Shown here piece after piece: positions 1,355 through 25,635 of a DNA stretch of 25,635 nt. The notes under the pieces are model-generated. The model was not told the DNA's origin. It saw only the letters and a list, made by a program, of their open reading frames with translations, and did no database searches. Numbering within the stretch: position 1 is the first letter of the stretch; each line of letters begins with the position of its first letter. The position numbers and the translations under genes were made by a program. Origin of the DNA: a virus; the IMG/VR virus record IMGVR_UViG_3300025138_000314, positions 1-25,635 of that record. The stretch is one strand, 5' to 3'.

Positions 1355-1380
1355 GGCATCTCATTTGGAGATGCCATTTT
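1354..1380 (+). terminator. Rho-independent terminator-like hairpin
   Basis: A 9-bp perfect stem TGGCATCTC / GAGATGCCA (1354-1362 with 1368-1376) with a 5-nt loop ATTTG, followed by TTTT. The U-run is short, so termination may be partial. It lies in the gap between the small-gene cluster and the FAD-dehydrogenase gene, where a transcription boundary is expected. Confidence 0.65.
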
Positions 1381-1393
1381 AAGTTCGTATATT
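1364..1393 (+). promoter_or_regulatory. Candidate host-type promoter of the FAD-dehydrogenase gene
   Basis: TTTGG (1364-1368), 19 nt, then TATATT (1388-1393) inside TTCGTATATT, 22 nt before the ATG at 1416. The same arrangement with the same 19-nt spacer precedes the gene at 2750. It resembles the Bacteroidetes primary-sigma promoter (TTTG at -33, TAnnTTTG at -7). The upstream element overlaps the loop and 3' arm of the terminator hairpin. Inference from pattern only. Confidence 0.45.
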
Positions 1394-1415
1394 CACACAT
1401 AAATAAGAATACAAT

Positions 1416-3550: not shown

Positions 3551-3561
3551 CATATTTATAA
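3551..3561 (+). promoter_or_regulatory. Late-promoter-like motif CATATTTATAA
   Basis: One of eight copies of [CA]ATATTTATAA found before genes in this window. It starts one base after the kinase stop codon and lies 15 nt before the ATG at 3577. Confidence 0.6.
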
Positions 3562-4818: not shown

Positions 4819-6387
4819 ATGTCTGAATTAAAACAAGTAATACGTAAAGAATATCTTAAATGTGCTAAAGATCCCGTACATTTTATGCGTAAGTACTGTT
4901 ATATACAACACCCGCAAAGGGGGCGTATACAATTCAATTTATACCCATTTCAAGAAAAAGTATTAACGCTAATGCGTGATAATCCATATTCGATTATTTT
5001 AAAGTCAAGACAATTAGGTATATCAACATTATCAGCAGGTTATTCATTATGGATGATGACTTTCCATAAAGATAAAAATATATTATGTATTGCAACCAAG
5101 CAAGAAACGGCTAAAAATATGGTTACAAAGGTAAAATTTATGTACGAAAATTTACCTTCATGGCTTAAAATAGATGCCTCTGAAAATAATAAATTAACAC
5201 TTCGATTAACAAATGGGTCACAAATTAAAGCAACATCAGCTTCAAGTGATGCAGGTAGATCTGAAGCAGTATCACTACTATTAATTGATGAAGCAGCATT
5301 TATTGATAATATTGGTGAAATTTGGGCATCAGCTCAACAAACATTAGCAACTGGTGGTGGATGTATAGCATTAAGTACTCCATATGGTACAGGTAATTGG
5401 TTTCATCAAACATGGGTTAGAGCAGAATCTGCAGAAAATGAATTTTTACCTATTAAATTACCTTGGTATGTACACCCAGAAAGAAATCAGGAATGGAGAG
5501 ATAGACAAGATGAATTATTAGGTGATCCTAGAATGGCGGCACAAGAATGTGATTGTGATTTTAGCACTTCTGGGGATATAGTATTTTATCCTGAGTATAT
5601 AGATTTTTACGAAAAAACTTATATTAAAGACCCACTAGAAAAAAGAGGAGCTGATCAAAATTTATGGGTTTGGGAATCAGCTGATTATACTAGAGACTAT
5701 GTAGTAGTAGCGGATGTTGCTAGAGGTGATGGAAAAGATTATTCTGCCTGTCATGTGATTGATGTAGAAAATAATGTACAAGTTGCTGAGTATAAAGGGC
5801 AATTAGGAACAAAAGAATTTGGTCATTTATTAGTAGGTTTAGCTACTGAATATAATGAAGCAATGCTAGTAATAGAAAATGCTAATATAGGATGGGCAAC
5901 TATACAAGTTGCTATAGACAGAGCATATCCTAATCTTTATTATTCACAAAGAAGTGACTCCCCAAATGCTAGTTCGTATTTTGATAAATATCAAGACCAC
6001 TCCAAAATGGTAGCTGGTTTTACAATGTCATCTAGAACAAGGCCTATGGTAATAGGTAAGTTCCAGGAATATATTAGTGATAAAGGAGTAACGATTCAAT
6101 CTAAAAGATTGATAGAAGAAATGAAAGTATTTATTTGGCGTAATGCTAGAGCAGAAGCTCAAAGTGGGTACAATGATGATTTAGTTATGTCATTTGGTAT
6201 AGCTATGTATATTAGAGATACGGCATTAAAAATGAGACAAAGGGGTTTAGATGCAACCCGAAATGCATTAAATAATATATCAGTAAATAGAACATCGTAT
6301 CAAGGTGGATACTTTTCCTCAGGTAATGATAATCCTTACCACATAGACACAAAAGATGGAAAAGAGGACATTAGATGGCTTCTATAA
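4819..6387 (+). CDS. terL: Terminase large subunit (T4 gp17-like)
   Basis: 522 residues: the DNA-packaging motor ATPase and headful nuclease, acting at the portal vertex. The ATPase half shows a Walker A-like KSRQLGIST (62-70), Walker B LLLIDEA with catalytic E158, and the coupling motif ALSTPYGTGNW at about 184-194. The RNase H-fold nuclease half has acidic residues in ADVARGDG (D299), VIEN (E353) and YNDDLVMSF (D453/D454), matching the D-E-D triad of T4 gp17. The length is slightly below T4's 610. The start is fixed by TAATATG coupling to the upstream membrane gene. No small terminase is recognised in the window. In T4, sheath and tube genes follow gp17; here the portal follows directly. 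Confidence 0.97.
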   Translation: MSELKQVIRKEYLKCAKDPVHFMRKYCYIQHPQRGRIQFNLYPFQEKVLTLMRDNPYSIILKSRQLGISTLSAGYSLWMMTFHKDKNILCIATKQETAKNMVTKVKFMYENLPSWLKIDASENNKLTLRLTNGSQIKATSASSDAGRSEAVSLLLIDEAAFIDNIGEIWASAQQTLATGGGCIALSTPYGTGNWFHQTWVRAESAENEFLPIKLPWYVHPERNQEWRDRQDELLGDPRMAAQECDCDFSTSGDIVFYPEYIDFYEKTYIKDPLEKRGADQNLWVWESADYTRDYVVVADVARGDGKDYSACHVIDVENNVQVAEYKGQLGTKEFGHLLVGLATEYNEAMLVIENANIGWATIQVAIDRAYPNLYYSQRSDSPNASSYFDKYQDHSKMVAGFTMSSRTRPMVIGKFQEYISDKGVTIQSKRLIEEMKVFIWRNARAEAQSGYNDDLVMSFGIAMYIRDTALKMRQRGLDATRNALNNISVNRTSYQGGYFSSGNDNPYHIDTKDGKEDIRWLL

Positions 6388-6415: not shown

Positions 6416-8323
6416 ATGGCAGATAAAGGCTTATTTAGTAGACTACAGAGATTATTTTCAACAGACGTAATTATACGTAATGCTGGTGGAAATCAAGTAA
6501 AAGTAATAGATAGTAATACTATTCAAACTAGTGGTGAACTACAAACAAATTCATTAATAGATAGATATAATAGAATATATTCTACAAACCCATCTTCTTT
6601 ATATGGGTCTCAATTTAATGTAAATTATCAATATCTTAGACCACAATTATATTCTGAATATGATTTAATGGATCAAGATGCTATTATTGCTTCAGCTTTA
6701 GATATTATAGCAGATGAATCAACATTAAAGAATGATATGGGCGAAGTATTATCTATTCGTTCCGCAAATGAAGACATTCAAAAAATATTATATAATTTAT
6801 TTTATGACGTATTAAATATTGAATTTAACTTATGGTCATGGGTTAGACAAATGTCAAAATATGGTGATTTTTTCTTAAAATTAGAAATATCAGAAAAGTT
6901 TGGTGTATATAATGTTATACCTTACACAGCTTATCATATTGAAAGACAGGAAGGATTTAACTTAGATAACCCATCAGAAATTCGTTATAGATATTCCCCA
7001 GACGGTTTAGTTAATTCAAATTCTGGGTTATATAGAGTTCCTGGTCAAGCTTTTCAAGATGATCAAACTGGTATTTATTTTGATAATTATGAAATGGCTC
7101 ACTTTAGATTAATAGGTGATGTTAATTTCTTACCTTATGGTAGATCATATATAGAACCTGCTAGAAAATTATTTAAACAATATACATTAATGGAGGATGC
7201 AATGTTAATTCATAGAATTGCTCGTGCTCCTGAAAAACGTATTTTTTATATGAATGTTGGTTCTATTCCACCAAATGAAATAGAAGCATTTATGCAAAAA
7301 ACTATATCTCAAATGAAACGTACTCCTTATGTAGATCCAAAATCTGGAGAATATAATTTGAAATATAATATGCAAAACATGATGGAGGATTTTTATATCC
7401 CCGTTCGTGGAAATGATACAACTACAAAAATAGATACTACACCTGGTTTAGATTATGATGGTATCCAAGATGTTGAGTATTTAAGAGATAAATTATTTGC
7501 AGCTTTAAAAATACCTAAAGCATTTTTAGGATATGACGAAAATGTAGAAGGTAAAGCTACTTTAGCTGCGGAAGATATTCGTTTTGCTCGTACTATTGAG
7601 CGTTTACAACGTATACTAGTATCAGAACTTAATAAAATTGCACTTGTTCATTTATACGCTCAAGGATATAAAGATGAAGCATTAACTAATTTTGAGTTAT
7701 CAATGCAAACACCATCAATTATATTTGAACAAGAAAAAATAGAATTACTTAAATCTAAAACAGAATTAGCTTCACAATTATTAACTGATAATATTTTACC
7801 ATCAGAATGGGTTTATGATAATATTTTCCATTTATCCGAAGATCAATATGATGAATACAGAGATTTAATGCGTGAAGATGCTAAACGTAAATTTAGATTA
7901 GCACAAATAGAAGCAGAAGGAAATGATCCAGTTGAAACTGGTAAATCATATGGTACACCTCATGATTTAGCTTCATTATATGGTAAAGGAAGAATGTATT
8001 CAGATCCAGGAAACGTACCAGCAGGATATGACACAACACCTAATGATTTAGGTCGCCCTAAGGATAGTATTTCTAATCATGGAAAACAAGATAGTAATTT
8101 TGGAAAAGACCCGCTAGGAACAAAACGTATGAAAGATACTGATAAAAATGACTCCTCAGACAGTAGAACAGATACTAATAAATCGGGGTTAGCTTTGGAA
8201 AATGCCCAAGTAACTTATCTTAAAAACAAAGATATGTTTAAAAACATGAATAAAAAACAATTAGTATTTGAACATGATAAAGATGATTCATCATTATTAG
8301 ATGAAAACCAATTGAAGGAATAA
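6416..8323 (+). CDS. gp20: Portal vertex protein (T4 gp20-like)
   Basis: 635 residues: forms the dodecameric ring that nucleates prohead assembly, docks the terminase and conducts DNA. Landmark gp20-type blocks are YDLMDQDAIIASALDIIADE (82-101), LPYGRSYIEPARK (239-251), RIARAPEKRIFYMNVG (267-282), EDFYIPVRG (324-332) and a TPGLDYDGIQDVEYLRDKL stretch (342-360). T4 gp20 has 524 residues. The extra length is mostly a C-terminal tail from about 520, rich in Gly/Asp/Ser/Lys and low in complexity, ending in a short LVFEHDKDD...LLDE block. The first ATG, 15 nt after a late-promoter-like motif, is the clear start. Confidence 0.96.
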   Translation: MADKGLFSRLQRLFSTDVIIRNAGGNQVKVIDSNTIQTSGELQTNSLIDRYNRIYSTNPSSLYGSQFNVNYQYLRPQLYSEYDLMDQDAIIASALDIIADESTLKNDMGEVLSIRSANEDIQKILYNLFYDVLNIEFNLWSWVRQMSKYGDFFLKLEISEKFGVYNVIPYTAYHIERQEGFNLDNPSEIRYRYSPDGLVNSNSGLYRVPGQAFQDDQTGIYFDNYEMAHFRLIGDVNFLPYGRSYIEPARKLFKQYTLMEDAMLIHRIARAPEKRIFYMNVGSIPPNEIEAFMQKTISQMKRTPYVDPKSGEYNLKYNMQNMMEDFYIPVRGNDTTTKIDTTPGLDYDGIQDVEYLRDKLFAALKIPKAFLGYDENVEGKATLAAEDIRFARTIERLQRILVSELNKIALVHLYAQGYKDEALTNFELSMQTPSIIFEQEKIELLKSKTELASQLLTDNILPSEWVYDNIFHLSEDQYDEYRDLMREDAKRKFRLAQIEAEGNDPVETGKSYGTPHDLASLYGKGRMYSDPGNVPAGYDTTPNDLGRPKDSISNHGKQDSNFGKDPLGTKRMKDTDKNDSSDSRTDTNKSGLALENAQVTYLKNKDMFKNMNKKQLVFEHDKDDSSLLDENQLKE

Positions 8324-11381: not shown

Positions 11382-11987
11382 ATGAGCAAAAAGCTATTAA
11401 TAGAGGTAAATACATTTAAAGTAAACCCCCTTCAATTAACTGAAAATGTTAATAAAGAAACGGGTAATTTAATGGTTGAAGGAATTCTAGCCTCTGCTGA
11501 AGTAAAAAATGGTAATGGACGATATTATTCTAAAGATCTATGGGATAGAGAGATGGAAAAATATGGTGAACTTATTAAAGAAAGACGTTCAATGGGGGAA
11601 TTAGACCACCCAGAATCTTCAGTTATAAACCTACAAAATGTATCACATCTTATTTCTGATTATTGGTGGGATGGAGATAATGTAATGGGTAAAATAGAAG
11701 TATTACCAACACCATCAGGCAACATACTTTCAGAATTAATTAAAGCAGGTGTAACTGTAGGTGTTTCATCTCGTGGTATGGGCTCTTTAGAAGATAGAGG
11801 TGGAGTAATGGAAGTACAAGATGATTTTGAATTATTATGTTGGGATTTTGTTTCTACACCATCAAATCCAGGTTCATATATGCATACTTTAAATGAAGGT
11901 AAACAATCAATTACTTACGATTATACTAAAGTAAATAGTATTATACAAGAAATCCTTTGTTCTAAAGGTTCTTGTTCTACTTTTTAA
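11382..11987 (+). CDS. gp21: Prohead core protease (T4 gp21-like)
   Basis: 201 residues, against 212 for T4 gp21. It is the serine protease that digests the scaffold and trims capsid proteins after L/I-x-E sites during prohead maturation. NGRYYSKDLWDREM at about 45-58 is the conserved N-terminal block. GELDHP supplies the catalytic His (H76), GVSSRGMGS the nucleophilic Ser (S129 or S130), and CWDFVSTPSNPG at about 153-164 a possible third residue (D155). The gene sits immediately upstream of the scaffold and capsid genes, as in T4. It starts 6 nt after the previous stop with an A-rich leader and no Shine-Dalgarno. Confidence 0.95.
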   Translation: MSKKLLIEVNTFKVNPLQLTENVNKETGNLMVEGILASAEVKNGNGRYYSKDLWDREMEKYGELIKERRSMGELDHPESSVINLQNVSHLISDYWWDGDNVMGKIEVLPTPSGNILSELIKAGVTVGVSSRGMGSLEDRGGVMEVQDDFELLCWDFVSTPSNPGSYMHTLNEGKQSITYDYTKVNSIIQEILCSKGSCSTF

Positions 11988-12010
11988 TTTTTCGAAATAT
12001 TCATATACGT

Positions 12011-12086
12011 ATAACCGTAATATGCCATCTCCTATATGGCATCGATAAACAAATTAATCCCTATTACGGTTCTTAATAACCGTATT
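12011..12086 (+). promoter_or_regulatory. Structured leader with mutually exclusive hairpins upstream of the scaffold gene
   Basis: Within the 122-nt gap, AACCGTAAT (12013-12021) is fully complementary to ATTACGGTT (12063-12071). This long stem encloses a local 7-bp hairpin ATGCCAT/ATGGCAT (12022-12028 with 12036-12042). The same ACGGTT (12066-12071) can instead pair with AACCGT at 12078-12083. ATAACCGTA is repeated directly (12011-12019 and 12076-12084). The two folds exclude each other, as in attenuators or riboswitch-like leaders. No late-promoter-like motif was seen here. No known RNA family was recognised, and function is inferred. Confidence 0.5.
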
Positions 12087-12109
12087 TCACAAACTTAAAT
12101 TTTGCGATT

Positions 12110-13432
12110 ATGTCAAAAAACAGAGACTTGCTTAAAGAAGCAATTGCTGATGCTAAAGCTGTAAAAGAAACTGCTATAGCAAATGCTAAAGCTGCATTAG
12201 AAGAAGCTTTTACTCCTCATTTGAAATCTATGTTAGCCGCTAAATTAGAAGAAATGGACAAAGAAGACGTTGACGAAGGATACGATAAGTATGAAGAAGA
12301 CGACGTTAACGAAGAAATGGATTCTAAGAAAAAAGCTGATAAGGAAAAAATGGATGAAGAGATGAAAGAAGATGATAAAGTAGACGAAGCTAAAAAAGAA
12401 GAGATTGACGAAGAAATCACTCTTGACGAATTACTTGCAGAACTTAATGAAACCGAAGTAGAAGAAAATAAACGAACTGATGCTGAACAAGAAGGTTATA
12501 AGGACGGATTCGAAGACGCTAAAGACGACATCGAAAAAGAACTTAAATCTATGAAAGTATCAGAAAGTGAAAATTCTGAAACTGAACTATCTGAAAATGC
12601 TAGAACAGACGCTGAAGAAGAAGGCTACAAAGACGGCCTGAAAGACGAGAAAGAAGACATGAAAGAAAACGCTCGTACGGATGCTGAAGAAGAAGGCTAC
12701 AAAGATGGTATGAAGGACGAAAAAGAAGACATGGACGACGAGGAAATTGATCTCGAAGATATGTCAGAAGACGACCTTAAAGGATTCATTGAAGATGTAA
12801 TTAAAGACATGGTGGGTTCAGGTGAATTAGAAGCTGGAGAAGAATTTGAATCTGAAGAAGTAGACGGAGACGTTGAAATCGACAGTGAAGAAGAAATCGA
12901 AGTGGAAGATGAAGTTGAAATCCCAATGATGGAAGAAAAAGAAGAGTTAGAGGAAATGGATGCAGTAAGTTGGAATGATAAAAACAATCCTACAAGAGGA
13001 GCTAGTAAAGTAGATCTAGATCCTAAAAAGGTTGGTAAATCAACAGCTGCTTATTCTATTAACGAGGAAGAAGTAACTAAAATGTTAGCTGAAGTTGAAG
13101 AACTTAAAAAAGAACTTACGGAAGTTAACCTTTTAAATGCTAAACTCCTTTACACTAATAAAATCTTTAAATCCAAAAACTTAAACGAAGCTAAAAAAGT
13201 TAAAGTGCTTAAAGCATTTGACAAAGCTTCAACAGTTAAGGAAGCAAAAGTTATTTTTGAAACATTAAACGAAGGAATGTCATCTAAAATGACAAAACCA
13301 TCTATTAATGAAGTAAAAGGTAGCGCTTCAAAAGCTTCAGGAATATCTCCTAAAGCAAAACAGCCAATAGTTGAAAACGCAGCATTTATGCGTATGCAAC
13401 AATTAGCTGGAATTATTAAAAAAGAAAATTAA
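12110..13432 (+). CDS. gp22: Prohead scaffolding core protein (T4 gp22-like)
   Basis: 440 residues, extremely acidic and helical, longer than T4 gp22 (about 270). It forms the internal core around which the capsid shell assembles and is then digested by gp21. The N-terminal half is Glu/Asp/Lys low-complexity with three copies of a 23-residue unit built on RTDAE[EQ]EGYKDG (starting near residues 119, 162 and 186). The conserved C-terminal third reads LNAKLLYTNKIFKSKNLNE, VKVLKAFDKASTVKEAKVIF and finally FMRMQQLAGII, a block I associate with gp22-like proteins in marine phages. It has more C/G-ending codons than its neighbours, as expected for a very highly expressed gene. The protease lies upstream and the capsid gene 24 nt downstream. 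Confidence 0.9.
   Translation: MSKNRDLLKEAIADAKAVKETAIANAKAALEEAFTPHLKSMLAAKLEEMDKEDVDEGYDKYEEDDVNEEMDSKKKADKEKMDEEMKEDDKVDEAKKEEIDEEITLDELLAELNETEVEENKRTDAEQEGYKDGFEDAKDDIEKELKSMKVSESENSETELSENARTDAEEEGYKDGLKDEKEDMKENARTDAEEEGYKDGMKDEKEDMDDEEIDLEDMSEDDLKGFIEDVIKDMVGSGELEAGEEFESEEVDGDVEIDSEEEIEVEDEVEIPMMEEKEELEEMDAVSWNDKNNPTRGASKVDLDPKKVGKSTAAYSINEEEVTKMLAEVEELKKELTEVNLLNAKLLYTNKIFKSKNLNEAKKVKVLKAFDKASTVKEAKVIFETLNEGMSSKMTKPSINEVKGSASKASGISPKAKQPIVENAAFMRMQQLAGIIKKEN
12464..12733 (+). repeat. Triplicated 69-bp coding repeat in the scaffold gene
   Basis: Units at about 12464-12532, 12593-12661 and 12665-12733. The last two lie 72 bp (24 codons) apart and are nearly identical at the protein level, with several synonymous differences. 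The first is more diverged. All encode EN-x-RTDAE-x-EGYKDG plus an acidic tail. Confidence 0.8.
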
Positions 13433-13456: not shown

Positions 13457-15097
13457 ATGAGTTTACAAACTTTATTAGAAAGTGCAAACCCATATCACTC
13501 AGTACAAAGCGATGCCGCTAGATTGTCTGAAAAGTGGGAAAAAACAGGTTTGTTAGAAGGTATGAAAGGTGCTTCCAAAAATAACATGGGAATGATCCTT
13601 GAAAACCAAGCTAAACAACTTGTAGTAGAAAGTTCACAAACAGGTGGTGGTGTTAATTCGTCCGCGAATTTTACTGCTGGTGTAGGTGAGCAATGGGCTG
13701 GTGTAGCTCTTCCGTTAGTACGTAAAGTATTCGGACAGATCGCCGCTCAAGAATTTGTATCAGTTCAACCAATGAATTTACCTTCTGGTCTAGTATTTTT
13801 CCTAGACTTCCAATATGGAACTTCAAAAACTCCATTTAACACAACTGAAGGAACAGATTCATTATATGGAAATGATAGTGGTGCTCCATTTGGAAATGCT
13901 GCTGATGGTGGTTTATATGGTGCTGGCCGATTTGGTTACTCTATAAACAACACATCTTCTGTATTTACTTCAGCTGCTACATCATCTGCTGATTGGTCAG
14001 ATTTTGACTATGATTCAGATTATTCTTCTTCTGCTGTAAAAGGTGAGTACGTAAAAATTTCTTTTGCTACTTCATCAATTAGCTATGCAGATTGGAAAGG
14101 TGTAAGAGGATTTAGAATATCAGGTTCAGGCCTAAATTCATTCTCTTTTGATGACAACTTACCAGCATTTACAAAAGTAAATGGTGTAAATGTTGAATTC
14201 TTGATTACAGGATCACTTTATGGTGTTGCAACAGGAGCTTCTGCATGTACAATGGTATATCAATTACAACCAACTGATCAATACAGAGGTGACTTTGAAG
14301 ATGGAAATGATGCTATCAATGATAACAACTCTCCAATTCAAATTCCAGAAATCAATGTACAGATGAAATCATCTGCTATCGTTGCTAAAACTAGAAAACT
14401 GAAAGCTGTATGGACACCAGAATTTGCACAGGATTTAAATGCATATCATGCATTAGATGCTGAAGCTGAATTAACATCTATCTTAAGTGAGTACATTTCA
14501 TTAGAAATTGACTTAGAAATTTTAGATATGTTAATGGAAAGCGCTGCTGCTGGAACTGAAACATGGTCAGCTGTAAATAACAGAGCTATTACAGGAGCTG
14601 GAAACGGTAGTATTAGCGACTTAGGTTTCTACAATAGCCAAGGACAGTGGTTCCAAACATTAGGAACTAAAATCCAAAAACTATCTAACATCATTCACCA
14701 AAGAACACTTAGAGGTGGTGCTAACTTCTTAGTATGTTCTCCTTCTGTAGGTACAATCCTAGAATCTATTCCAGGATTTGCTGCTGACACAGATGGCGAT
14801 GCTGCTAAAATGAATTATGCATTTGGTGTACAGAAAGTAGGTAGCTTAAACAGTAGACAAAAAGTTTACAAGAACCCATATATGAAAGAAAATCAAATCC
14901 TATTAGGATTTAGAGGATCTCAGTTCTTGGAAGCTGGTGCTGTATTTGCTCCATACATTCCGTTAATCATGACTCCATTAGTATATGATCCAGACACTTT
15001 CACACCAAGAAAAGGTCTATTAACTAGATATGCTAAGAAAATGGTTAGACCAGAATTTTATGGATTAATCAACGTAAATGGTTTAAATACTCTATAA
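13457..15097 (+). CDS. gp23: Major capsid protein (T4 gp23-like)
   Basis: 546 residues (T4: 521). It is the hexamer-forming shell protein with an HK97-type fold. T4-like blocks are W-x-x-x-x-LLEG (27-35), MILENQAKQL (46-55), AGVALPLVRKVFGQIAAQ (81-98), VQPMNLPSGLVFFLDFQYG (103-121), VAKTRKLKAVWTPEFAQDL (309-327) and HALDAEAELTSIL (331-343). A gp21-type processing site is likely after VVE (E58), just before SSQTGGG; T4 gp23 loses 65 residues. Residues about 125-290 are a Ser/Gly/Asp-rich region that differs greatly from T4 and may include an insertion or decoration domain. It is followed by a strong terminator, fitting very high expression. Confidence 0.97.
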   Translation: MSLQTLLESANPYHSVQSDAARLSEKWEKTGLLEGMKGASKNNMGMILENQAKQLVVESSQTGGGVNSSANFTAGVGEQWAGVALPLVRKVFGQIAAQEFVSVQPMNLPSGLVFFLDFQYGTSKTPFNTTEGTDSLYGNDSGAPFGNAADGGLYGAGRFGYSINNTSSVFTSAATSSADWSDFDYDSDYSSSAVKGEYVKISFATSSISYADWKGVRGFRISGSGLNSFSFDDNLPAFTKVNGVNVEFLITGSLYGVATGASACTMVYQLQPTDQYRGDFEDGNDAINDNNSPIQIPEINVQMKSSAIVAKTRKLKAVWTPEFAQDLNAYHALDAEAELTSILSEYISLEIDLEILDMLMESAAAGTETWSAVNNRAITGAGNGSISDLGFYNSQGQWFQTLGTKIQKLSNIIHQRTLRGGANFLVCSPSVGTILESIPGFAADTDGDAAKMNYAFGVQKVGSLNSRQKVYKNPYMKENQILLGFRGSQFLEAGAVFAPYIPLIMTPLVYDPDTFTPRKGLLTRYAKKMVRPEFYGLINVNGLNTL

Positions 15098-22278: not shown

Positions 22279-25200
22279 ATGCCGAATTGGAAAAAAGTAA
22301 TAGTTAGTGGATCAAATGCTCATCTGTTATCACTTGAAGTAGACAATAGTGTAACACCAGGTAGTATAATAGATAAAGATGGTGATTCAGGTACTTCTGG
22401 TCAAGTATTATCTTCTACAGGTACTGAATTAAATTGGATTGATTCAGATACCGGCCCTCAAGGTTCAACAGGAGCACAAGGTGCAACAGGAACTCAGGGT
22501 TCACAGGGTACAACAGGTACTCAAGGTGCAACAGGAACTCAGGGTTCACAGGGTACAACAGGTACTCAAGGTGCGGCGGGTGCAACAGGTCAACAAGGTA
22601 TTACTGGTCCACAAGGAACTACTGGTTCGCAAGGAACAACAGGTACACAAGGAACAACAGGACAACAAGGTGCAACTGGAACTCAAGGTATAACAGGTCC
22701 TCAAGGTATAACAGGTACTCAAGGTGCAACTGGTACTCAAGGTACTCAAGGTACTCAAGGTATAACAGGCCCTCAAGGTACAACTGGTAGTCAAGGTGCA
22801 ACTGGAAATCAAGGTTTACAGGGTATAACAGGTCCTCAAGGTATAACAGGTCCTCAAGGTATAACAGGTACCCAAGGTGCAACAGGTACCCAAGGTGCAA
22901 CTGGTATACAAGGTGAAACAGGTACTCAAGGTGCAGCGGGTGCAACAGGTCAACAAGGTATAACAGGCCCTCAAGGTACAACTGGTAGTCAAGGTGCAAC
23001 TGGAAATCAAGGTTTACAGGGTATAACAGGTCAACAAGGTATAACGGGCCCTCAAGGTATAACTGGTAGTCAAGGTGCAACAGGAACTCAGGGTTCACAA
23101 GGTGCAACAGGTACTCAAGGTACTCAAGGTATTACTGGTCCACAAGGTGCAACTGGTACTCAAGGTGAAACAGGACAACAAGGTTCAACAGGTACTCAAG
23201 GTACAACTGGTCAACAAGGAACAACTGGTCCGCAAGGAACAACAGGTACACAAGGAACAACAGGACAGCAAGGTGCAACTGGTGCACAAGGAACAACAGG
23301 ACAACAAGGTGCAACAGGAAATCAAGGTGCAACAGGAACCCAGGGAGAAACAGGTACCCAAGGAACAACAGGTTCTCAAGGAACAACAGGCATAACCGGC
23401 CCTCAAGGGATACAAGGTATTACTGGTTCCCAGGGTACAACTGGTACCCAAGGTGAAACAGGTACCCAAGGTGCAACAGGTACCCAAGGTGCAACAGGAA
23501 CTCAAGGTTCACAAGGTATTACTGGTCCACAAGGAACTACAGGATTACAAGGAACAACAGGTACTCAAGGTGCAACAGGAAATCAAGGTGCAACAGGAAC
23601 CCAAGGTACAGTTGGTGAAACAGGTCCTCAAGGTATAACAGGTCCTCAAGGTATAACTGGTAGTCAAGGTGCAACTGGAAATCAAGGTGCAACTGGAACT
23701 CAAGGTACTCAAGGTACTCAAGGTATTACTGGTCCACAAGGTACAACTGGTACTCAAGGTTCAACCGGTCCTCAAGGAACAACAGGAACTCAAGGAACAA
23801 TAGGTTCAACAGGACCCATAGGACCAACAGGACCTCAAGGAACTCAAGGAACTCAAGGAATTCAAGGAAAAACTGGTTCACAGGGTACAACAGGAACTCA
23901 AGGAACTCAAGGTGCAACTGGTATACAAGGTGCAACAGGTACACAAGGAACAACAGGACAACAAGGTGTAACTGGTACACAAGGAACCCAAGGAATAACT
24001 GGAGCCCAAGGAACAACAGGTTCACAAGGAACAACAGGACAACAAGGTGTAACTGGTACACAAGGAACCCAAGGAATAACTGGAGCCCAAGGAACAACAG
24101 GTTCACAAGGTATTCAAGGTATAACAGGGGAAGATGGTAATTTTGGAGGTGCTTCATTTGATTATACTTTTGATTCACAAACAGGAGCTGCAGACCCAGG
24201 AACAGGTAAAGTTAGATTAAATAATAACGGAGGTAATCAAAATACATCTAATGCAATGTATATAGATGCTACTGATGATGATGGTAATAGTATAGTTCAA
24301 TTTATGACTACTATTTCTAATTCTTCTTCTACAATAAAAGGCCACGTTAGAATATCAGAAAAATTTAATACTAATGACTTTGTATTATTTCAAATAACTG
24401 GCGTAGCTGGTCAAAGTGGTAATGCATGGTATAATTTAACCGTATCTGGAGAAACATCATCAGGTGCAAATCCATTTTCAAACTTAGATGATGTAGTATT
24501 ATCATTTCAAGTAACAGGTGATAAAGGAGATACAGGCTTACAAGGTAACACAGGTTCAACAGGTCCACAGGGTACTACTGGAAGCACCGGTCCACAAGGA
24601 ACAACAGGAACCCAAGGAACAACTGGAACACAAGGTATAACTGGAAGTACTGGACCACAAGGAACAACTGGTACACAAGGTACAACAGGAACCCAAGGAA
24701 CAACTGGAACACAAGGCACAACAGGTTCAACAGGCCCACAAGGAACAACTGGTACTCAAGGTACAACAGGCACAACAGGACCTCAAGGCACAACAGGTTC
24801 AACAGGCCCACAAGGAACAACAGGTTCCCAAGGAACAACAGGCACAACCGGCCCCCAAGGAACAACAGGTACACAAGGTAACACAGGTTCAACAGGACCT
24901 CAGGGAACAACAGGCACAACCGGCCCTCAAGGAACAACAGGTACACAAGGTAACACAGGTTCAACAGGACCACAGGGTACTACTGGTACTCAAGGTACAA
25001 CAGGTACAACAGGACCAATAGGACCAACAGGACCACAGGGAACAACAGGTGAAACAGGACCAATAGGACCAACAGGACCACAAGGAACAACAGGAACTCA
25101 AGGCACAACAGGTACAACAGGACCACAAGGAACAACAGGAACTCAAGGAACTACTGGTGCACAAGGTTTAACAGGTTCAACAGGACCCCAAGGAACAACA

Positions 25201-25635
25201 GGTACACAAGGTAACACAGGTTCAACAGGACCACAGGGAACAACAGGCACAACCGGCCCTCAAGGAACAACTGGTACTCAAGGTACAACAGGTACAACAG
25301 GACCAATAGGACCAACAGGACCACAAGGAACAACAGGAACTCAAGGCACAACAGGTACAACAGGACCACAAGGAACAACAGGAACTCAAGGAACTACTGG
25401 TGCACAAGGAGAAACTGGTGCTCAAGGAACAACAGGACCACAAGGAACAACTGGTACTCAAGGTACAACAGGTTCTACAGGACCTATAGGACCAACAGGA
25501 CCACAAGGAACAACAGGAACTCAAGGAACAACTGGTACCCAAGGTACAACTGGAACACAAGGTACAACAGGTACACAAGGTACAACAGGTACAACAGGAC
25601 CAATAGGACCAACAGGACCACAAGGAACAACAGGA
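22279..25635 (+). CDS. Collagen-like Gly-X-Y repeat fibre protein (3'-truncated by window end)
   Basis: At least 1119 residues, open at base 25635. Residues 1-56 are a non-repeat head ([13 protein letters not shown]..., then [17 protein letters not shown]), matching the N-terminus of the fibre protein at 20359. From about 59 to 617 every third residue is Gly (G-[TAIPS]-[TQ] triplets such as GTQ, GAT, GPQ, GIT). An island of about 129 residues (618-746) with no triplets follows, then collagen-like repeats continue to the end. Such proteins form trimeric rods in phage tail fibres, and Thr-rich triplets can be stabilised without hydroxyproline. It is probably a long receptor-contacting or tail fibre. 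No stop codon was found in this frame; the C-terminal receptor or chaperone domain lies outside the window. Confidence 0.88.
22480..22569 (+). repeat. Exact 45-bp tandem duplication in the collagen gene
   Basis: Units 22480-22524 and 22525-22569 are identical (15 codons, five Gly-X-Y triplets). Identity includes wobble positions, implying a recent duplication. Confidence 0.85.
22756..23031 (+). repeat. 78-bp direct repeat, 198 bp apart
   Basis: 22756-22833 and 22954-23031 are identical, including the rare TTA-CAG pair, and encode [20 protein letters not shown] and onward. The offset is a multiple of nine, so the triplet register is kept. Confidence 0.8.
23944..24105 (+). repeat. Exact 81-bp tandem duplication in the collagen gene
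   Basis: Units 23944-24024 and 24025-24105 are identical over 27 codons (nine triplets), ending just before the non-collagen island. Confidence 0.9.
24130..24516 (+). other. Non-collagenous domain interrupting the collagen-like rod
   Basis: Residues 618-746 of the fibre protein. The sequence changes abruptly to a mixed-composition β-type domain ([64 protein letters not shown]) and then back to triplets with GDKGDTG. The start [15 protein letters not shown] and the order of strands are those of a small domain I have seen inside other phage collagen-like proteins. It could be a trimer-registering knob or a sugar-binding domain; function is unknown. Confidence 0.7.
24841..24984 (+). repeat. 72-bp near-exact tandem duplication in the collagen gene
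   Basis: Units 24841-24912 and 24913-24984 differ only at a few third-codon positions and encode [20 protein letters not shown] and onward. Confidence 0.75.
25054..25409 (+). repeat. 113-bp direct repeat, 243 bp apart
   Basis: 25054-25166 and 25297-25409 are identical. They include the [10 protein letters not shown] block, which also occurs near 23814, 25012, 25482 and 25596. The offset of 243 bp equals three 81-bp units. Confidence 0.8.

Follow-up and report, generated by a model that had tools for sequence, protein, structure and literature searches.

A conserved two-hairpin leader RNA upstream of the prohead scaffold gene in aquatic T4-like phages

The IMG/VR virus record IMGVR_UViG_3300025138_000314 carries a structured leader element between gp21, the prohead protease gene, and gp22, the prohead scaffold gene. 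The window is the whole stretch analysed, positions 1 to 25,635 of that record (25,635 nucleotides, nt). Comparison with related phages indicates that the element is made up of two independent, constantly formed hairpins, P1 and P2, at near-fixed spacing before the gp22 start codon. With moderate confidence, the leader is read as the 5' untranslated region of the late scaffold-capsid mRNA, in which P1 would be a 5'-terminal protective hairpin and P2 a recognition hairpin for translation or stability, with no switch between them.

Covariation of the two hairpins

Leaders for comparison were supplied by more than 250 related phage contigs. Searching IMG/VR with gp21 yielded 80 close contigs, and 80 others were obtained when a distant gp21 served as query. 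Further contigs came from a scan with a P2 pattern in which one P2 position was left free. Covariation was assessed in an alignment (A2) of 64 diverse leaders, and a separate close set was composed of 57 leaders.

Hairpin P1 is located at 12022-12042 on the + strand. Its arms, ATGCCAT and ATGGCAT (12022-12028 and 12036-12042), form 7 base pairs (bp) around a 7-nt loop. All seven pairs show compensatory double changes and 99.1% of aligned cells are paired, a value that is 100% in the close clade. A variable linker follows (12043-12064, + strand). Defined by its spacing and conservation, it measures 18-27 nt in relatives and ends in a conserved (C)TAT. Hairpin P2 is located at 12065-12084 (+ strand), where 12065-12071 pairs with 12078-12084 and the loop contains a conserved AAT. 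Five of its seven pairs show double changes, and 99.6% of cells are paired.

Taken together in the diverse set, the two hairpins are paired in 99.3% of cells and have compensatory double changes at 12 of 14 pairs. Double-change cells number 150, compared with 37.9 after shuffling. The covariation score is 0.486 versus 0.193 for shuffled alignments; none of 500 shuffles scores as high, and slid controls reach at most 0.116. RNAalifold returned P1 and P2 as the sole helices in the A2 alignment. Helices whose compensatory changes exceed both shuffled and slid controls are the mark of a conserved structured RNA.

Since the P2 pattern was used to fetch part of the set, P2 is most cleanly tested at the free position. 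This position is Watson-Crick paired in 151 of 152 distinct gp22 leaders (A-T 57, T-A 48, G-C 32, C-G 14), and the one other leader has T-G. Among off-context pattern matches in bacterial genomes, the same position is Watson-Crick in 14 of 43. Distant leaders that were fetched by gp21 have a much replaced P2 stem, e.g., UAGAGUU/AACUCUA in Mel-JY01, UGUAGUU/AACUACA in contig L221, and UAUAGCU/AGCUAUA in contig L223.

Position and distribution of the element

The element is always found 5' of the same gene family. Among the P2 pattern matches listed, all except those in contigs L127 and L177 sit 19-31 nt upstream of a gp22-like open reading frame. In the loci inspected, a covariance model of the element matches nowhere but upstream of gp22, including where gp21 has been replaced by another gene. 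Other genes lie between gp21 and gp22 in distant contigs, and the element remains with gp22. A constant position before one gene family, whatever the upstream neighbour, is the behaviour of a cis-regulatory 5' leader element. Each of seven records (68-238 kb) has one match to the model, and no second copy was found elsewhere in those genomes.

The cultured Flavobacterium phage vB_FspM_immuto (L201, ~6852-6969) possesses the element, as does Microcystis phage Mel-JY01 (L202, ~6727-6844). Judged by these comparisons, it is widespread among aquatic T4-like phages. An element common to T4 and the classic cyanophages was ruled out, since in T4, S-RIM8, P-SSM3, pf16, and D479 the gp21-gp22 gap is just 30-68 nt and has no model match. 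The host is probably a member of the Bacteroidota. The P2 pattern has 48 matches in bacterial genomes, and gp22 context is observed in only 5. These five are metagenome-assembled genomes labelled variously Flavobacteriales, Flavobacteriaceae, Maricaulis, Pelagibacter, and unclassified, and with labels so mixed they give little for host assignment.

The long-range stem

The original prediction described mutually exclusive hairpins in this leader. In that scheme ATTACGGTT (12063-12071) pairs either with AACCGTAAT (12013-12021), forming a long-range stem around P1, or, through P2, with AACCGT (12078-12083). The repeats and arms are correctly placed. The 122-nt gap between gp21 (end 11987) and gp22 (start 12110) is also confirmed and is atypical for this genome, where most late genes begin ~0-35 nt after the preceding gene.

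The scheme implies a two-fold switch or transcription attenuator, and the window sequence itself is favourable to it. The competing stems are perfect, and the minimum-energy fold of the leader includes the long-range stem. This fold has an energy of -18.4 kcal/mol, versus -11.7 ± 2.8 kcal/mol for shuffled leaders (z = -2.36; 6 of 200 shuffles equal or better). At least 8 of the 9 long-range pairs can form in 35 of the 57 close relatives. Because the lowest-energy fold of the window contains the long-range stem, one sequence cannot choose between the stems; relatives can. The comparative evidence for a leader RNA is far stronger than this single-sequence fold.

In relatives, the long-range stem behaves as chance would have it. 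It is 69.5% paired in the 64 diverse leaders, versus 70.3% when shuffled, and 87.1% versus 87.5% in the 57 close leaders, with no covariation in either set. Invariance is limited to its AAT/ATT core, and pairs that never vary neither support nor oppose a stem. Compensatory changes in orthologous leaders thus uphold P1 and P2 and fail the long-range stem, which is broken without compensation; P2 is not, with both P1 and P2 paired in virtually every leader. The 5' arm of the long-range stem also falls within the inferred promoter and start region. No hairpin followed by a U-run, as in a terminator, is present in any of 205 distinct leaders or in the window leader, which speaks against the late attenuator that had been proposed. 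With the long-range stem at shuffle level and no terminators, the two-state switch or attenuator was rejected. As a conserved feature it is largely refuted, and we regard it as the least probable explanation of the leader.

Promoter and transcript start

The block upstream of gp22 is a diverged TATACGTATA. Distant relatives have TATTTATA at the aligned position, and the block resembles a motif before other genes of the phage. Within it, CATATACGTATA (12002-12013, + strand) is the probable late-promoter core of the gp22-gp23 unit. This core aligns column for column with TATATTTATA of distant relatives, and its activity is predicted. The window contains nine copies of the motif ATATTTATAA, at 3552, 6391, 8334, 15161, 16010, 16038, 16602, 17203, and 20324, all on the + strand. 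The expected number is 0.82 (~tenfold enrichment), and none of 100 shuffles reaches nine. The sites are mostly in gaps ~18 nt upstream of start codons. ATATTTATAA is likely the T4-type late-promoter motif of the window phage.

The distance from the motif to P1 is 8-17 nt in leaders. An invariant AAT (12019-12021, + strand), present in 64 of 64 leaders, marks the probable transcription start region. By T4-type spacing, the transcript probably starts at ~12018-12020, at P1, omitting most of the 5' arm of the long-range stem. An intrinsic terminator lies upstream of the promoter block in 80 of 205 distinct relatives, so gp22 would head its own transcription unit in those 80. The gap between gp22 and gp23 is 20-35 nt and has a promoter motif in only 2 of 220 relatives. 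The same leader therefore probably heads the capsid mRNA, with gp23 carried on the same transcript as gp22.

The probable promoter adjoins the hairpins, which would suit an element acting as DNA instead of RNA, through protein-binding palindromes or promoter architecture. However, the arms covary with all four base pairs represented and G-U pairs among them, whereas a dimeric DNA-binding protein would keep the arm sequence. The position of the element is also tied to the start codon. A DNA element is thus very unlikely.

A different motif, TTCGTATATT (window 1380-1415 and 2720-2749), possibly another promoter class, is found upstream of two non-head genes, which start at 1416 and 2750. The gene at 1416 also has a GGCATCTC/GAGATGCC hairpin upstream.

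Proposed function and its rivals

The function of the element is inferred from the comparisons above. The T4-type late promoter at ~12002-12013 would place the transcript start a few bases at most from P1. As a 5'-terminal stem-loop, P1 would slow the loss of a very abundant mRNA through 5'-end-dependent decay. P2, whose flanks and 3' half-loop are conserved, may be a fixed site recognised by a protein or by the initiating ribosome. It would set gp22 translation and insulate the open ribosome-binding stretch of gp22. Its single occurrence per genome, only at gp22, agrees with a dedicated control over scaffold-capsid output.

Several points weigh against the proposed protective and recognition roles. 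The role of P1 would depend on the predicted start site and on an Escherichia coli precedent, and the decay enzymes of Bacteroidota may differ. Many of the 64 leaders were collected by the P2 pattern, which biases P2, although not P1 or the free position, toward being paired. The start region is more open in native than in shuffled leaders (0.596 versus 0.548; native higher in 52 of 64; P = 6e-7), but the difference is slight, and in immuto and Mel-JY01 it runs the other way. A repressor site would equally account for how strongly the sequence around P2 is conserved. Both the proposed roles and the transcription of the leader with gp22 mRNA are predictions from sequence comparison.

A repressor site is the main rival. 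P2 would then be a translational operator: a phage or host protein, possibly autogenous in the manner of T4 gp43 or gp32, would occupy the hairpin together with the start-adjacent stretch and repress gp22, balancing scaffold against capsid. No candidate repressor was identified, the whole genomes of the seven records (68-238 kb) hold no second copy of the element, and the ribosome-binding stretch is not covered by P2. An operator is possible, although we consider it unlikely.

P2 or its flank could also be an RNA processing site at which nuclease cleavage yields a matured mRNA of greater stability or translatability. Conserved unpaired U/A-rich flanks lie next to the stem, and RNase E cuts T4 gene 32 mRNAs upstream of the start codon (PMC3014915). 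Nevertheless, the flank after P2 varies among clades (TTTCACAAA, CTTTCCCAAC, CGACAAAC, CAATCACA), and processing is a doubtful explanation, less probable than an operator.

The ribosome-binding stretch and bS21

Between P2 and gp22 is a conserved single-stranded ribosome-binding stretch, TTTCACAAA...AAATTTTGCGATT (12085-12109, + strand). It is kept in the close clade, and an AGGA-type Shine-Dalgarno sequence is observed in some sister clades. In sister clades, gp22 has a Shine-Dalgarno sequence in 14 of 20 and 36 of 93 cases, compared with 0 for gp23 and 3-7% for other open reading frames. These are unselected counts, the AGGA-selected group being excluded as circular.

One of these sister clades, L241-L283, has a gene for ribosomal protein bS21 (Pfam PF01165) directly upstream of the gp22 leader. 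Phage bS21 genes directly or closely upstream of the leader are located at L281 5593-5769, L241 4883-5059, and L202 5155-5379. In the phages that bear them, a Shine-Dalgarno-like site marks gp22 but not the other genes. The L241-L283 clade also has an added covarying domain, GTTGRTT...GTGACCGAACAAYCRAC, inserted between P1 and P2. This domain is ~50 nt long (GTTGRTTAATGAATACCC...AAGGNGTGACCGAACAAYCRAC, with covarying arms), e.g., L281 ~5850-5900 and L241 ~5138-5187. Matches to it with flanking arms are found solely before gp22.

Phage bS21 near head genes is reported from Bacteroidetes phages (PMC9723584). Bacteroidota ribosomes hide the anti-Shine-Dalgarno by means of bS21, and in F. johnsoniae bS21-free ribosomes favour mRNAs with a strong Shine-Dalgarno (PMC9976891). 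Because of this concealment, the leader could be a device dedicated to initiation by phage-altered ribosomes. The hairpins and Shine-Dalgarno would let bS21-free or bS21-swapped ribosomes translate the scaffold selectively late in infection. Such a device is improbable, and it is not directly applicable to the window, where the phage's own clade has a Shine-Dalgarno-like site at gp22 in 0 of 44.

A small upstream open reading frame in the leader was rejected; ATG-started frames differ among clades or are absent. In immuto, an annotated 31-aa hypothetical protein (L201 6847-6939; NC_055915 125506-125598; KNV73_gp068) overlaps the element and is probably a spurious annotation.

Relation to known leader RNAs

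The E. coli ompA-type 5'-terminal stem-loop is an mRNA stabiliser. P1 resembles it as a stem-loop at or very near the predicted 5' end of an abundant mRNA, and differs in that the host is probably one of the Bacteroidota.

The T4 gene 43 RNA operator is also a leader hairpin of a T4-type phage, tens of bases before the start codon, with a variable stem and a part-conserved loop (PMC3014915). The likeness is one of anatomy only: the present element precedes a scaffold gene, has two hairpins with other loop and stem sequences, and leaves the start-proximal sequence uncovered. The gene 32 leader of T4 and RB69 is another structured 5' leader of T4-type phage mRNA and sets translation (PMC3014915). 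It contains a pseudoknot, whereas RNAalifold predicts only two separate hairpins here. The manA and wcaG leader RNAs are structured leaders of T4-like cyanophages that were likewise found by comparative genomics (PMC2864571). They precede metabolic or host-derived genes, whereas the present element, which lacks an Rfam match, is confined to the leader of the head scaffold gene.

In Rfam 15, no family reaches its gathering threshold; the best hit is DUF2693, with 18.2 bits versus a threshold of 81.3, on the minus (wrong) strand. A freshwater-2 match of 16 bits in a group-3 relative is far under threshold. No published description of the gp22 leader was found in a literature search that left most subscription journals outside its reach. 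Phage leader RNA is a known kind, and the element itself looks new. The original prediction of an apparently undescribed structured cis-acting RNA in the scaffold-capsid leader is therefore borne out by the covarying P1 and P2 and the lack of an Rfam match.

The element is located at a control point of head assembly in aquatic T4-like phages of an abundant group, and it gives a handle on how scaffold and capsid output is set in hosts that for the most part do without Shine-Dalgarno sequences. The cultured pair of Flavobacterium sp. LMO8 and phage immuto carries the element, which makes it directly testable.

Neighbouring genes and other features

The upstream neighbour in the window, outside the element, is gp21, a T4-type prohead protease (11382-11987, + strand; Pfam Peptidase_S77, E = 1.5e-29). 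In distant relatives, other genes are in its place. The gp22-like prohead scaffold gene (12110-13432, + strand; 440 aa) is always 3' of the element. It is assigned by its position between gp21 and gp23, as its protein has no match in Pfam or PHROGs. The major capsid protein gene, gp23 (13457-15097, + strand; Pfam Gp23, E = 6e-75), follows after a 24-nt gap with no promoter motif.

Further along, window positions 22440-25635 contain a long run of 9/18/27-bp repeats. The run looks like a collagen-like Gly-X-Y coding tract and continues past the end of the window.
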